Source of the DNA: Desulfurivibrionaceae bacterium
Lineage (GTDB): Bacteria; Desulfobacterota; Desulfobulbia; Desulfobulbales; UBA5123
Direction of reading: 5' to 3'
NCBI GenBank assembly: GCA_030145325.1
Contig: JAQYVW010000031.1
Location: 1-34,370 of the forward strand
Length of the DNA: 34,370 nucleotides
The position numbers and the translations under genes are program-made. Of the stretch, positions 194 through 21,900 are shown one piece after another. Numbering within the stretch: the first letter of the stretch is position 1; each line of letters starts with the position of its first letter. The notes below the pieces were generated by a model, which ran no database searches, had not been told where the DNA came from, and saw only the letters and a program-made list of their open reading frames with translations.

Positions 194-1099
194 ATGCAGC
201 TTGGCATCATCGGATTAGGACGAATGGGAATGAATATGGCCCGACGGCTGATGGGCGGCGGCCATCAGGTGATTGCCTATAATCGGACCCCTGACAAGAC
301 CGAAACTCTGGTCACCGAGGGAGTCTCTGCCGCCTATTCCCTGGCCGAGATTGTGGAGAAACTGCCCCCGCCACGCGTTGTCTGGCTGATGCTGCCAGCT
401 GGAGATGTGGTGGATAATCACCTTGAGCAATTAAGTGATCTCCTCTCCCCTGATGATATCGTCATTGAAGGGGGTAACACCTATTACAAAGATGACATCC
501 GCCGCGCCGCACGGTTGGCGGAAAAATCCATTCGTTATGTTGATGCCGGCGTTTCCGGTGGCATTTGGGGACTTAAAGTAGGCTACTGCCTGATGGCTGG
601 CGGCGACAAGGAGACCTGCAAATATCTTGAGCCGATCTTCACCACCCTGGCTCCCCCTGAAGGTTATCTTTACTGTGGCCCCACCGGCTCTGGCCACTTC
701 GTCAAAATGGTTCATAACGGCATCGAATACGGGATGATGGAGGCCTACGGCGAAGGGTTTGCCATCCTTGAAGCTTCACCCTACGCCAAAGACCTGGACT
801 ATGCCAAGGTCTCACATCTCTGGAATCAGGGCAGCGTTATTCGTTCCTGGTTGCTTGAACTGCTGGAAGACGCCTTTGCCAGAGATGAAAAGCTTGATCG
901 TATCCGTGGCTATGTGGATGATTCGGGCGAGGGGCGCTGGACCGTGCAACAAGCCATTGAAAACGGGGTGGCGGCACCGGTGATTGCTTTGTCACTGTTC
1001 AAACGCTTTCAGTCCCGTGATAACAACGCCTTTGAAGACCGGGTTCTTGCCGCCCTGCGCCGAGAATTCGGTGGTCATGCGGTAAAAACAGATAAATAA
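194..1099 (+). CDS. gnd: 6-phosphogluconate dehydrogenase, decarboxylating (short GndA/YqeC-like type)
   Basis: Oxidatively decarboxylates 6-phosphogluconate to ribulose 5-phosphate in the cytoplasm, the third step of the oxidative pentose phosphate branch. The 301-residue protein opens with a Rossmann glycine motif GLGRMG (7-12). It has the substrate-loop signature DAGVSGG (117-123) and the catalytic K171, N175 and E178 in GHFVKMVHNGIEYG. At about 300 residues it belongs to the short class rather than the 470-residue class. The ATG at 194 is chosen because AAGGAG at 181-186 precedes it and the Rossmann strand starts at once; an in-frame ATG at 125 would add 23 residues unlike the family. N30-R31-T32 after the second strand would suit NADP, but coenzyme choice is inferred. 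zwf begins 19 bases downstream. Confidence 0.93.
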   Translation: MQLGIIGLGRMGMNMARRLMGGGHQVIAYNRTPDKTETLVTEGVSAAYSLAEIVEKLPPPRVVWLMLPAGDVVDNHLEQLSDLLSPDDIVIEGGNTYYKDDIRRAARLAEKSIRYVDAGVSGGIWGLKVGYCLMAGGDKETCKYLEPIFTTLAPPEGYLYCGPTGSGHFVKMVHNGIEYGMMEAYGEGFAILEASPYAKDLDYAKVSHLWNQGSVIRSWLLELLEDAFARDEKLDRIRGYVDDSGEGRWTVQQAIENGVAAPVIALSLFKRFQSRDNNAFEDRVLAALRREFGGHAVKTDK

Positions 1100-1118: not shown

Positions 1119-2648
1119 ATGAAAATCGCCAATGAAAACCAAGATAAAGAACGGCCTCTTTGCGTCAATCTAACCAATACTCCGCTTCCCCCATGTACCA
1201 TCGTCATCTTCGGCGCTTCCGGTGATCTCACTGCCAGAAAACTTATTCCGGCCCTCTTTCACCTTTTTTGCAATGATGGCCTGCCCCAACAAGTGGCCAT
1301 CGTTGGTTGCGCCCGCACCGTCCTTGACGACCATGGTTTTCGCAAAAAAATGCAAGAATCGGTACAACCTGAGTCCGCAGCCAAATGGGCGGCCTTTGCC
1401 ACCCATCTTTATTACCGGCAGATAACTTACGATTCCACCGCAAAATTTGAAGAATTGCGCCCTTCCCTGCACCAAATTGATATCCAACACCAAACCGGCG
1501 GCAATCGGATCTTCTACCTGGCCACCCCGCCAACCCTGCATCCAATTGTGGCTGCCATGATCGGCAAGGCCGGTTTGGCTACGGAACAAAATCACCATAA
1601 CGGCTGGGCACGAATCGTTGTGGAAAAACCCTTTGGCAGCAACCTTAAAACAGCCATGGAACTGGATGCCACCCTCCATGAACATTTTACAGAGCAGCAG
1701 ATATTTCGTATCGATCACTACCTGGCCAAAGAAACAGTACAGAATATCCTGATGCTGCGTTTTGCCAACGCTATCTTTGAACCGCTTTGGAACCGCAATT
1801 ACATTGATTATGTCGGCATTGTCGCCTCTGAAAAACTCGGCGTCGAACATCGGGCCGGTTTCTATGAACAGACTGGGGTATTGCGCGACATGTTTCAGAA
1901 CCACATGCAGCAACTCCTCGCCTTAACTGCCATGGAAGCGCCGTCACTCTTTGAAGCTGACCGAGTTCGGGACGAAAAAATAAAGGTATTTCGCTCCTTG
2001 AAACCATTTGATCGCGAAAATAGCGGCGACAACCTGATCCTCGGCCAATACCGGGCGGGTAGCATTGATGGCGGCAATGTTGTTGGTTATCGAGATGAAA
2101 ATGGGGTTAACCCTGATTCCCTCACCCCAACCTTTGCAATGATGCGGGTCTTTGTCGATAACTGGCGCTGGCGGCACGTGCCGTTTTATATGGTTTCCGG
2201 GAAACGGTTGCCAAGGAAGGAAACCAAGATTATTATCCAGTTCAAGGAAGTGCCGCATTCGATGTTTTCGAGTCTGCTGGATGAGCGTATTGACACTAAC
2301 CGCCTGACCCTCGGTATTTATCCAGTAGACGAGATCAAGCTTACCTTCCAGACCAAAACGCCAGGGCCATCAATCTGTCTGCAACCAGCGACCCTTGATT
2401 TCAAGTATCAACAGTTGGCAAACACCCCAACCCTTGATGCTTACGAAAAGGTATTACTTGACTGCATGATGGGCGACCAGACCCTTTTCTGGCGGCAGGA
2501 TGGCGTTGAACAATGTTGGAAATTTCTAAATCCAGTACTGGATGAGTGCGAAATATGCGAAGGACAGGCGGGAAAACTCCACCCTTATGGGGCTGGAACC
2601 TGGGGGCCGGAAGCGGCGCAAAAATGGATGCGACTATTGGTTGACTGA
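1119..2648 (+). CDS. zwf: glucose-6-phosphate 1-dehydrogenase
   Basis: Oxidises glucose 6-phosphate to 6-phosphogluconolactone, the first step of the oxidative pentose phosphate pathway. The 509-residue length is normal. The nucleotide-binding FGASGDLTARK lies at 31-41, EKPFG at 169-173, and the substrate/active-site signature RIDHYLAKE at 197-205 with the catalytic histidine. The C-terminal G6PD fold is complete, ending in the usual tryptophan-rich region. It sits between gnd and pgl with gaps of 19 and 3 bases, so the three enzymes of the branch are almost certainly cotranscribed. There is no strong ribosome binding site before the ATG. Confidence 0.96.
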   Translation: MKIANENQDKERPLCVNLTNTPLPPCTIVIFGASGDLTARKLIPALFHLFCNDGLPQQVAIVGCARTVLDDHGFRKKMQESVQPESAAKWAAFATHLYYRQITYDSTAKFEELRPSLHQIDIQHQTGGNRIFYLATPPTLHPIVAAMIGKAGLATEQNHHNGWARIVVEKPFGSNLKTAMELDATLHEHFTEQQIFRIDHYLAKETVQNILMLRFANAIFEPLWNRNYIDYVGIVASEKLGVEHRAGFYEQTGVLRDMFQNHMQQLLALTAMEAPSLFEADRVRDEKIKVFRSLKPFDRENSGDNLILGQYRAGSIDGGNVVGYRDENGVNPDSLTPTFAMMRVFVDNWRWRHVPFYMVSGKRLPRKETKIIIQFKEVPHSMFSSLLDERIDTNRLTLGIYPVDEIKLTFQTKTPGPSICLQPATLDFKYQQLANTPTLDAYEKVLLDCMMGDQTLFWRQDGVEQCWKFLNPVLDECEICEGQAGKLHPYGAGTWGPEAAQKWMRLLVD

Positions 2649-2651
2649 CAG

Positions 2652-3383
2652 ATGAACTGCCAACGACATAATTTCCCAACCCTCGACCAATGCTGCCAAG
2701 CATTGGCCGAGCATATCGTGGTCACCGCCCAGCAATGCGTGGCCCAAAGGGGTCGCTTTACCCTGGTGGCTTCAGGAGGGAGCACACCGCAACCACTCTA
2801 CCGCCTCTTGGCCACCCTCCCGTTTGCCCACCGGATGCCATGGTCACAAACACATTTATTCTGGGGGGACGAACGCTGTGTTACCGCCGACCACCCAGAC
2901 AGCAACTATCGCCTGGTCAAGGAAGAACTGCTGGCTCAGGGCTTGCTACCTACCGCTAATATCCATCGAATGGTGGGCGAGATACCAGCCGCCACCGGGG
3001 CAGCTAATTACGAAGAAGAGTTGCGAAACTTCTTCGTAAGCCATGGAGATGAAGCAATCACCTGGCCAGTTTTTGACCTGATCCTCCTTGGCTTAGGCAG
3101 CGACGGCCATACCGCCTCCCTGTTTCCAAACTCCTCGGCGCTTAACGAAAAAACGAAATGGGTAACCGCAACCCCTCCCGGCGTTCTTGCCCCGCAAGTG
3201 CATCGACTTACCCTCACCTTACCAGTCCTTAACAACAGCGCTGAGGTGATATTTCTTGTTGCCGGAGCTAAGAAAAAAACATTGGTTGAGCAAATCATCT
3301 CCCACCGGCAAGGTCAGGCAGAGTATCCGGCTGGTTATATAAAGCCGCAAGGAAAACTGCATTGGTATATCGCTGAGGTCTAA
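2652..3383 (+). CDS. pgl: 6-phosphogluconolactonase (DevB type)
   Basis: Hydrolyses 6-phosphogluconolactone to 6-phosphogluconate, the second step of the oxidative branch. The 243-residue protein carries the sugar-phosphate-binding SGGSTP loop (41-46), a WGDERCV motif, and the GLGSDGHTASLFP signature shared with glucosamine-6-phosphate deaminases. The length and the position right behind zwf fit Pgl rather than NagB. The ATG is three bases after the zwf stop with no clear Shine-Dalgarno, which suggests translational coupling. Confidence 0.94.
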   Translation: MNCQRHNFPTLDQCCQALAEHIVVTAQQCVAQRGRFTLVASGGSTPQPLYRLLATLPFAHRMPWSQTHLFWGDERCVTADHPDSNYRLVKEELLAQGLLPTANIHRMVGEIPAATGAANYEEELRNFFVSHGDEAITWPVFDLILLGLGSDGHTASLFPNSSALNEKTKWVTATPPGVLAPQVHRLTLTLPVLNNSAEVIFLVAGAKKKTLVEQIISHRQGQAEYPAGYIKPQGKLHWYIAEV

Positions 3384-3393
3384 TCAGAAAAAC

Positions 3394-4710
3394 ATGAACG
3401 AGAAAATCTCCAAATACAACTTATATCCGCAATTACCCGCAGCCTGGTTCCTCGGTAGTGGCTTCCTTTTGTGGCTCTGGTTTCCGCACTTTGTTGATTA
3501 CCACTTAATTATCATTTGGCTGTTCGTTGGCGGCTTTATTGCCATCCTCTGCCGTTACCTTGATAAACGATTACAGAAACAGACGGCCACGGAACTTGAC
3601 CTCCGTCGAGAACTTGATGAGTTGAAAAATCATTTGGCCGAAACGACAATAAACTTGTCAGCAAAAAACCAACAACTACAGCAGGATCTTGCCGCAAGCA
3701 TAAACACTCAAAACGCGCAACAGCGCGAACTGCGGGAAACAGAAAGGATACTAAACGACACCGGCATCGCCATCTGCATCATCGACCTGGAATACACCAT
3801 CCGCCGAGCCAACAAAGCCATGGCCGAGCGGTGTAATCAAGAAAGAGACAAACTAATCGGTGAAAAATGTTTTAGGGTCTGGCAGACCCCATTTTGCGGC
3901 AACGACCATTGCTCTCTGCAACGCATAGCCAAGGGCGAAAAAATAATCATCGAGGAATGTTTCAGGATTAATAATGGGGCAAGAGACAAGAGCACGCTGG
4001 CCATAACTGCAACTCCATTCACCGATACAGATGGTTGCGTTGCCGGGATCATCAAAACAATCCCCCCCGCAAACGAGAAGGATGCCCTACAACAGAAAAC
4101 ATCGGCCCGACTTCTTCACGATCTTAACAATGTTCTGGCCGCCGTCATCGGTCACACCGAATTGGCCATTCAGCAAACCGAGCCGAGCACCCTCCTCAAT
4201 GACAACCTACAAAAAGCCCTGAAGGCCGCCAACCGCGGCCAAGATTTAGTGGCGCAATCTGCCCCTCCTGACAAAACCACAACCACGGCAACAAATAACA
4301 AAAAATCAACCCGGCAGCCAATCAAGGGGGGCTGCGAAAAAATCCTTTTTGTCGATGACGAGGAAGTTTTGGTCTCGATGACGAAACAGTTAATGGATGA
4401 ACTGGGTTATCAATTCCATGGCGAGACCTCAAGCGTTGCCGCCTTAAATCGATTCAAGGAATCACCAGATTATTACGATCTGGTCATCACCGACCAGACC
4501 ATGCCAGGACTAAGTGGTACCCAGATGGCCGAAACGATGCTCAGCATCCGCCCGGATTTGCCGATCATTCTCTATACCGGTTACAGCGAGAAGGTGACCA
4601 AAGAACAGGCTCAAACAATGGGCATCAAGGTATTACTCTTGAAGCCGGTATCTGCCACCGGCCTGGCGCAAACCATACGTTCAATCCTCGATAAAGAGCA
4701 TCAAAGGTAG
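3394..4710 (+). CDS. membrane PAS / HisKA-like / receiver protein without an ATPase domain
   Basis: A 438-residue signalling protein of unknown target. Two membrane helices (about 16-31 and 35-53) are followed by a coiled coil (55-120) and a PAS domain (120-225) containing C159, C168 and C173. A HisKA-like helix has H242 in HDLNN, the usual form of hybrid kinases (HDxNN). A low-complexity T/N/K-rich linker (288-312) follows, then a complete receiver domain with acidic D321-D322, phosphoacceptor D367, T395 and K417. The roughly 150-residue HATPase_c domain with its N, G1 and G2 boxes, expected between histidine and receiver, is absent. The reading frame is intact, so this is not a simple frameshift. 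It starts 10 bases after pgl and is probably in the same operon. It may be a phosphorelay intermediate or a pseudokinase driven by another kinase. Confidence 0.8.
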   Translation: MNEKISKYNLYPQLPAAWFLGSGFLLWLWFPHFVDYHLIIIWLFVGGFIAILCRYLDKRLQKQTATELDLRRELDELKNHLAETTINLSAKNQQLQQDLAASINTQNAQQRELRETERILNDTGIAICIIDLEYTIRRANKAMAERCNQERDKLIGEKCFRVWQTPFCGNDHCSLQRIAKGEKIIIEECFRINNGARDKSTLAITATPFTDTDGCVAGIIKTIPPANEKDALQQKTSARLLHDLNNVLAAVIGHTELAIQQTEPSTLLNDNLQKALKAANRGQDLVAQSAPPDKTTTTATNNKKSTRQPIKGGCEKILFVDDEEVLVSMTKQLMDELGYQFHGETSSVAALNRFKESPDYYDLVITDQTMPGLSGTQMAETMLSIRPDLPIILYTGYSEKVTKEQAQTMGIKVLLLKPVSATGLAQTIRSILDKEHQR

Positions 4711-21099: not shown

Positions 21100-21900
21100 C
21101 TATAGGTTTCGGCAGAGAATGGTCGCGGTCAAAAAACCAATGACAAACGCTAACGGGGCCAGCCAACTCGTAAGACGCAAAGCCTTCTTTTTGAGACTGT
21201 ATTCGGCAGTGGCATCACGACCAACAAATAGATACCCCTTGGGATTACCCTGACCATCATTGATAATATTGGTACTGGTAGCAACAAACCGCCATTGATT
21301 ATCGGGATGACGAATCTTTAGCGGCTTTTCTTGGATGATCTTTTTGTGGGTGAGCTGATCAAGAAAAAGCCTATATGACGCCTGATCCTCATAGATATCG
21401 TGCAGTAACACATTCTGCATCTCTTCCCAGGTACGGCCATAGAGTTTCTCCGCCGCCTTGTTCCAGGCCAGAACCCGGAACTGGTCACTGGTTAACACCA
21501 CCGCATCAGGCAATAGGTCGCAGAATTCTCGCAGTCCATGAAGAATGGTGGTGGTTTCGTACAGCCGCTGGGCAAGCTCAATGGACAGCTTCGAGGCCAC
21601 CGAGGGAAACTCCTCCAAAAATTCGTTGATCCGATCACAGGGGATCCGCACCGCCGTTACCGTGGTGTGAGCGCGCACCGTGGCCGTGCGTTTATGGCGC
21701 AGGAGGAATGACATCTCACCAAAAAGCGCCCCTGGTTCACCTATCTCGGCAAGTGGTGTTTCACCCTTAAAAACCGTGATCCGTCCAGAAATCAGGATAT
21801 AAAGATCCTGGCTCTCATCGCCTTCAATAAAAACCGGCTCGCCAGCGGCATAATCCTGAAAATACTTTTTCAGACCTGCCTGTTGAATAACATCCTTCAT
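21100..21900 (-). CDS. cNMP-binding / PAS protein with C-terminal membrane anchor
   Basis: A 266-residue signalling protein. A cyclic-nucleotide-binding domain (about 15-105) has a complete phosphate-binding cassette, GALFGEMSFLL with R71-T72-A73. A PAS domain (about 125-235) contains LAWNKAAEKLYGRTWEEM and ends in GRDATAEYSLKKKAL. One membrane helix (246-262) closes the protein. There is no DNA-binding, kinase, GGDEF or methyl-accepting domain, so no output is visible. It may act through a partner or hold the sensor at the membrane. It converges with the flavoprotein gene, 12 bases between stops. Confidence 0.8.
   Translation of the reverse strand: MKDVIQQAGLKKYFQDYAAGEPVFIEGDESQDLYILISGRITVFKGETPLAEIGEPGALFGEMSFLLRHKRTATVRAHTTVTAVRIPCDRINEFLEEFPSVASKLSIELAQRLYETTTILHGLREFCDLLPDAVVLTSDQFRVLAWNKAAEKLYGRTWEEMQNVLLHDIYEDQASYRLFLDQLTHKKIIQEKPLKIRHPDNQWRFVATSTNIINDGQGNPKGYLFVGRDATAEYSLKKKALRLTSWLAPLAFVIGFLTATILCRNL

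Follow-up and report, generated by a model that had tools for sequence, protein, structure and literature searches.

A gene for a hybrid sensor protein follows gnd, zwf and pgl in the window, as we call the whole stretch of 34,370 nucleotides of Desulfurivibrionaceae DNA analysed here. The first-pass annotation of this DNA had reported that the protein lacks an ATPase domain. The locus therefore raises the question of whether such a gene is real and, if so, what a sensor of this kind could do with phosphoryl groups beside the enzymes of the oxidative pentose-phosphate pathway. Feature coordinates are collected in Table 1.

Table 1. Features of the sensor gene and of the operon that contains it (positions in the window)
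Feature	Position	Strand	Description
gnd	about 194-1099	+	ORF, same operon, upstream of the sensor gene
zwf	1119-2648	+	ORF, same operon
pgl	2652-3383	+	ORF, same operon, ends 10 bases before the sensor start codon
ATPase-less hybrid sensor gene	3394..4710	+	438 aa, ATG start, ORF without breaks
Two predicted membrane helices	3433..3561	+	residues about 14-32 and 37-56; sequence, low-confidence model
Coiled coil	3562..3735	+	residues about 57-114; sequence, long helix in low-confidence model
PAS_4	3736..4059	+	residues about 115-222; Pfam, cysteines common to the G001 ortholog
DHp (HisKA-like)	4096..4260	+	residues 235-289; sub-threshold HisKA, HDLNN core
DHp codons	H242, 4117-4119; D243, 4120-4122; N246, 4129-4131	+	
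Low-complexity linker	4261..4329	+	residues 290-312, where the ATPase domain would be; HATPase match absent
Receiver	4342..4677	+	residues 317-428; PF00072
Receiver codons	D367, 4492-4494; T395, 4576-4578; K417, 4642-4644	+	

Domain layout of the sensor protein and the missing ATPase domain

In the window protein, Pfam identified a Response_reg domain (PF00072; residues 317-428, 65-68 bits) and a PAS_4 domain (residues 123-220; 41 bits, over the cut-off). A HisKA match (PF00512; residues 235-287), for which an HMM check had been suggested, was present but at 19.2 bits fell under the gathering cut-off of 26.9; the same place scored 23.6 bits in a scan of the genome itself. Residues H242, D243, N245, N246, D321/D322, D367, T395 and K417 were all found at the expected numbers, and the receiver carries the full Asp/Thr/Lys set (D367, T395, K417). 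The PAS cysteines are arranged as C159-x8-C168-x4-C173, with C128 and C215 in addition. A single-sequence AlphaFold model was poor (pLDDT 48.9) and was used for helix positions only. The layout first proposed, with two membrane helices, a coiled coil, a cysteine-containing PAS domain, a helix with H242 and a receiver, is thus confirmed, with the membrane helices and coiled coil being predictions from sequence, and the linker rich in T, N and K was recovered in an unbroken frame (20-25 residues, at 290-312).

The first-pass annotation had seen nothing like the N, G1 and G2 boxes of HATPase_c. In agreement with this, no HATPase-type family matched the window protein in Pfam up to E=1, and no HATPase domain was found in its ortholog from a second species of the genus (G001), where HisKA scored 18.4 bits. 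A profile scan of the window's own genome located HATPase_c at 93 places, none of them inside the sensor ORF. For five of the 79 HisKA places in this genome, the following 400 nt contained no match to HATPase. Contig ends truncate two of the five (C103 and C136), one (C76) has what looks like a divergent ATPase-like tail, and two are true absences, namely the window gene and a REC-HisKA-REC-GGDEF protein on contig C151. With only two true absences among 79 places, a missing HATPase domain is rare and does not reflect a problem of detection. Adjoining genes were also considered as a source of a separate ATPase domain and none was found; the downstream gene is surE, on the opposite strand. The C151 protein (L103:4728-6155, corresponding to G000:C151:14227-15654 and running past the contig end) retains an H-box of the AGATAHELSQPL type, unlike the window protein.

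The sensor gene follows pgl in two species of one genus

The four genes lie on the same strand with gaps of about 19, 3 and 10 bases, and the position of the sensor gene 10 bases after pgl was confirmed. No terminator-like site was seen on the + strand from pgl to the end of the sensor gene. In G001, the ortholog is a protein of 458 aa, 52% identical over nearly its full length, with the same domain architecture and the same ATPase gap. Gene order there is also gnd-zwf-pgl-sensor, and the start of the sensor gene and the end of pgl overlap by 8 bases. Given the common strand, the short gaps, the lack of a terminator-like site and the conservation in G001, co-expression of the sensor gene with gnd-zwf-pgl is likely, presumably by co-transcription. 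The downstream neighbours differ (surE in the window, a PilZ gene in G001), which indicates that the link between pgl and the sensor gene has outlasted local rearrangement.

Elsewhere the arrangement was not encountered. The genus has one more genome, G002 (78% complete), which is uninformative since neither zwf nor pgl could be detected in it, and in the sister genus (G003) pgl is just upstream of zwf, hence the sensor does not follow pgl. No third copy of the sensor was found in 258 genomes of the order or in 395 sampled across the phylum: the best non-ortholog matches reached 75-85 bits, mostly by similarity at the level of the PAS domain, while the ortholog scored 225 bits with this query. 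None of the other zwf-pgl loci that were inspected carries the sensor gene. As judged by these searches, the sensor gene and its operon linkage are limited to one genus.

The genome of the window is fragmented (168 contigs), which in principle leaves room for errors of assembly. Such an error, or a strain-specific deletion, is nevertheless practically ruled out by the G001 ortholog, which was assembled independently and has the same architecture, while its linker has diverged and differs in length. A survey of relatives for gnd-zwf-pgl followed by this architecture, as initially suggested, thus yielded one further species. It also answers the two objections raised at that stage, that relatives might carry a full ATPase domain at this locus or that the gene might be absent from the operon in all of them: G001 has the complete gene order and no ATPase domain. 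The window gene therefore encodes a real and probably functional protein.

Constraint is highest in the receiver and the DHp is remodelled

Compared with the G001 ortholog, the receiver is 76% identical, DHp helix 1 68%, DHp helix 2 56% and the PAS domain 51%. Identity is lower for the membrane helices (36%), the coiled coil (26%) and the linker (22%), the length of which also differs between the two proteins. NG86 dN/dS was 0.18 overall and 0.05 in the receiver, the lowest of all regions; as dS is near saturation, only the ranking of the regions is safe, and with two sequences the conservation statistics are thin. The receiver is the most constrained part, and purifying selection is concentrated there. 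Its T395 is replaced conservatively by Ser in G001. All five PAS cysteines (C128, C159, C168, C173 and C215) are kept, and HDLNN..LAAVIGHTELA is the same in both proteins.

The DHp was compared with that of 46 intact HDxNN kinases, a position being taken as conserved when kept in at least 70% of them. The segment just upstream of the histidine (QKMEAIGTLAGGIA) has 13 such positions. Both ATPase-less proteins keep 1 of the 13, compared to a mean of 11.6 and a minimum of 5 in the intact kinases, a small set gathered through the window gene's own search hits; the true parent may sit in a subfamily whose upstream segment is less conserved than in this set. From the histidine to position +16, in contrast, both proteins keep 8 of 10 conserved positions (mean of 8.9 in the intact kinases). 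H242, the Asp at +1 and the Asn at +4, the phosphatase Asn, are retained in both orthologs. The conserved end of DHp helix 2 is lost in the window protein and half kept in G001.

In DHp domains, the side that cooperates with the ATPase domain is formed by the upstream part of helix 1 and the terminal part of helix 2, while receivers dock mainly on the part that follows the histidine. Mapped in this way, the lost part would probably be ATPase-facing and the kept part receiver-facing. What is new here, at the level of sequence, is that the DHp is remodelled: its upstream signature is gone while the receiver-facing part stays.

Probable origin from a hybrid kinase

A full hybrid kinase of the same genome (G000:C85, 897 aa, L089) has the nearest receiver, at about 53% identity, and the GGxEKILFVDDE-type lead-in to the receiver resembles those of hybrid kinases. 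Over a stretch of some 47 residues, the DHp aligns with HDxNN kinases at about 45-55%. The simplest history suggested by these similarities is that an HDxNN hybrid kinase lost its ATPase (CA) domain before the two species diverged and that the DHp would have been remodelled afterwards. A Tll0287-like/PAS/HisKA/HATPase kinase found upstream of gnd/zwf at four loci (family f12, L144-L147) was considered as the intact ancestor and rejected as a different gene: its DHp is of another type (HDLKEP), the single example scanned lacks a receiver, and the neighbouring PilZ gene has no match to the G001 PilZ at E<=1e-4.

Possible functions of the sensor protein

Lacking an ATPase domain, the window protein cannot be an autokinase. 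We favour, with a probability of about one half, a non-autophosphorylating modulator that would act in trans as a phosphate sink or receiver phosphatase for another two-component pathway. The product would be a membrane-anchored PAS protein made along with the oxidative pentose-phosphate enzymes. Its PAS domain and coiled coil would determine which state a dimeric DHp bundle adopts, and the receiver-facing surface (H242, N246) together with its own receiver (D367) would accept or drain phosphoryl groups of another pathway. The model presumes dimerisation, a direction of phosphate flow, a partner and a signal. No partner gene is encoded next door to the sensor, and with 93 HATPase and 17 HPt places in the genome scan the partner is not guessable from position. 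In HisKA kinases, phosphatase activity alone depends on the Thr/Asn at +4, and kinase activity alone on the acidic residue at +1 (PMC3510030). Retention of D243 counts against a pure phosphatase, which would not need this residue. Phosphotransfer or receiver-phosphatase activity has been suggested for HisKA proteins without HATPase (Galperin et al., PMC5847659).

The strong constraint on the receiver, by far the best conserved part, would also fit a protein that is in effect a membrane-bound response regulator, in which D367 would be phosphorylated by another kinase or HPt and output would occur by protein-protein contact, the DHp being only a stalk and H242 vestigial. The 17 HPt places are possible donors, and dimerisation and protein-protein contact have been suggested for PAS/HisKA/REC proteins without HATPase (Galperin et al., PMC5847659). 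A mere stalk, however, could dispense with HDLNN and the adjoining receiver-facing residues, yet these are kept, and we regard this possibility as rather unlikely. A further possibility is a kinase subunit phosphorylated in trans, forming a heterodimer with an intact hybrid kinase and passing phosphate from H242 to D367, or acting as a dominant negative when in excess. Both H242 and D243 are present, D243 being of the type required only for kinase activity (PMC3510030), and the nearest receiver, at about 53% identity, belongs to a full hybrid kinase of the same genome. Yet the upstream segment and the end of helix 2, which are probably ATPase-facing, are lost in both species, and the coiled coil and membrane helices, expected to pair with the partner, are poorly conserved. 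We consider such a subunit unlikely.

Finally, the low identity of the coiled coil and linker and the restriction to one genus would be compatible with a decaying hybrid-kinase relic, retained only as the last gene of an essential operon. This is hardly credible with a frame unbroken in two species at 52% identity, dN/dS of 0.18 overall and 0.05 in the receiver, and receiver catalytic residues that are intact or conservatively replaced. The sink or phosphatase modulator is thus favoured over a receiver acting alone and over a trans-phosphorylated partner. Of the roles initially put forward, phosphotransfer or interference is still the most sensible reading, while a simple dominant-negative heterodimer is weakened by the lost upstream DHp segment.

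Possible link to metabolism and distribution of the three-Cys PAS

A response to redox or metabolite state near NADPH production, also proposed in the first-pass annotation, was not supported. Dozens of further signalling proteins from this order, including intact kinases and PAS-GGDEF proteins, carry the C-x8-C-x4-C PAS motif, which therefore says nothing specific about NADPH or redox; the operon linkage is found in one genus only. Any link of the sensor to redox state or NADPH is a matter of inference. A three-Cys PAS was present within 3 kb at 9 of 69 zwf/gnd loci, 6 of the 9 having been picked via PAS hits, with a control (1 in 400 kb) that is too small; these few and partly selected cases give no more than a lead. 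Such neighbours are f12 kinases (L144-L147, in G050, G051, G052 and G060), f14 PAS-GGDEF proteins (L148-L149, in G026 and G016) and one weak case in f7 (L207, in G009).

It is conceivable, though improbable in our view, that the window protein is a dedicated, metabolically embedded phosphate sink, co-produced with NADPH-generating enzymes and draining or redirecting phosphate of another phosphorelay in response to what its three-Cys PAS senses. If this were true, the f12 and f14 neighbours would mean that PAS domains of the three-Cys class have repeatedly come to report on pentose-phosphate flux. A literature search found no paper tying an ATPase-less HisKA/REC protein to zwf/pgl.

Three further observations were made. 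In another family, a PAS-GGDEF (diguanylate cyclase-type) gene directly follows zwf-pgl (L073:582-1505, in G037). In family f5, one small genome of 1.7 Mb contains a zwf match (G020:C20:81106-82191) that has three in-frame stops (one TGA and two TAG) and looks decayed. The window itself encodes, at 21100-21900 on the - strand, a 266-aa protein with cyclic-nucleotide-binding and PAS domains and a C-terminal hydrophobic stretch, without a recognised output domain.

Comparison with known systems

Among the elements of a hybrid histidine kinase, the window protein has the His-containing DHp and the receiver and lacks HATPase_c. It has in common with HDxNN hybrid kinases such as G000:C85 the DHp from the histidine on, the receiver and the GGxEKILFVDDE-type entry to it, and differs from them by the loss of the ATPase domain, the upstream segment and the end of DHp helix 2. 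Spo0B and ChpT are DHp phosphotransferases with a degenerate ATPase-like domain and without REC or PAS. Like them, the window DHp would handle phosphate without autophosphorylating; unlike them, the protein has a REC domain and, instead of an ATPase-like domain, just a low-complexity linker of 20-25 residues. Osp, a receiver-like inhibitor of the hybrid kinase CckA (PMC9430884), is likewise derived from two-component proteins and modulates a kinase rather than acting as one; it is a soluble single-domain protein, and the likeness lies in the possible mechanism only.

The closest architecture is that of PAS/HisKA/REC proteins without HATPase, known from archaea (e.g. Archaeoglobus fulgidus AF_1472) and catalogued in P2CS as 'probable incomplete HK' (PMC5847659, PMC2716373), none of which had been studied by the time of a 2018 archaeal census (PMC5847659). 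With PAS and REC domains, a HisKA-like histidine and no HATPase, the window protein falls within the 'HisKA, no HATPase' definition (PMC5847659, PMC2716373). It is likened to AF_1472 by architecture, sharing the PAS, a HisKA-like domain with the conserved His, the REC and the missing ATPase domain; it differs in being bacterial, membrane-anchored, derived from an HDxNN hybrid kinase and encoded at the end of a gnd-zwf-pgl operon. HisKA and REC proteins without an ATPase domain have been catalogued and are often mis-annotated as kinases. Taken together, the window protein is probably a functional, genus-level bacterial member of this known class: a small, conserved and operon-defined example with a specific DHp sequence signal, and a candidate for a phosphate sink or phosphatase that works without ATP and is tied to central metabolism.
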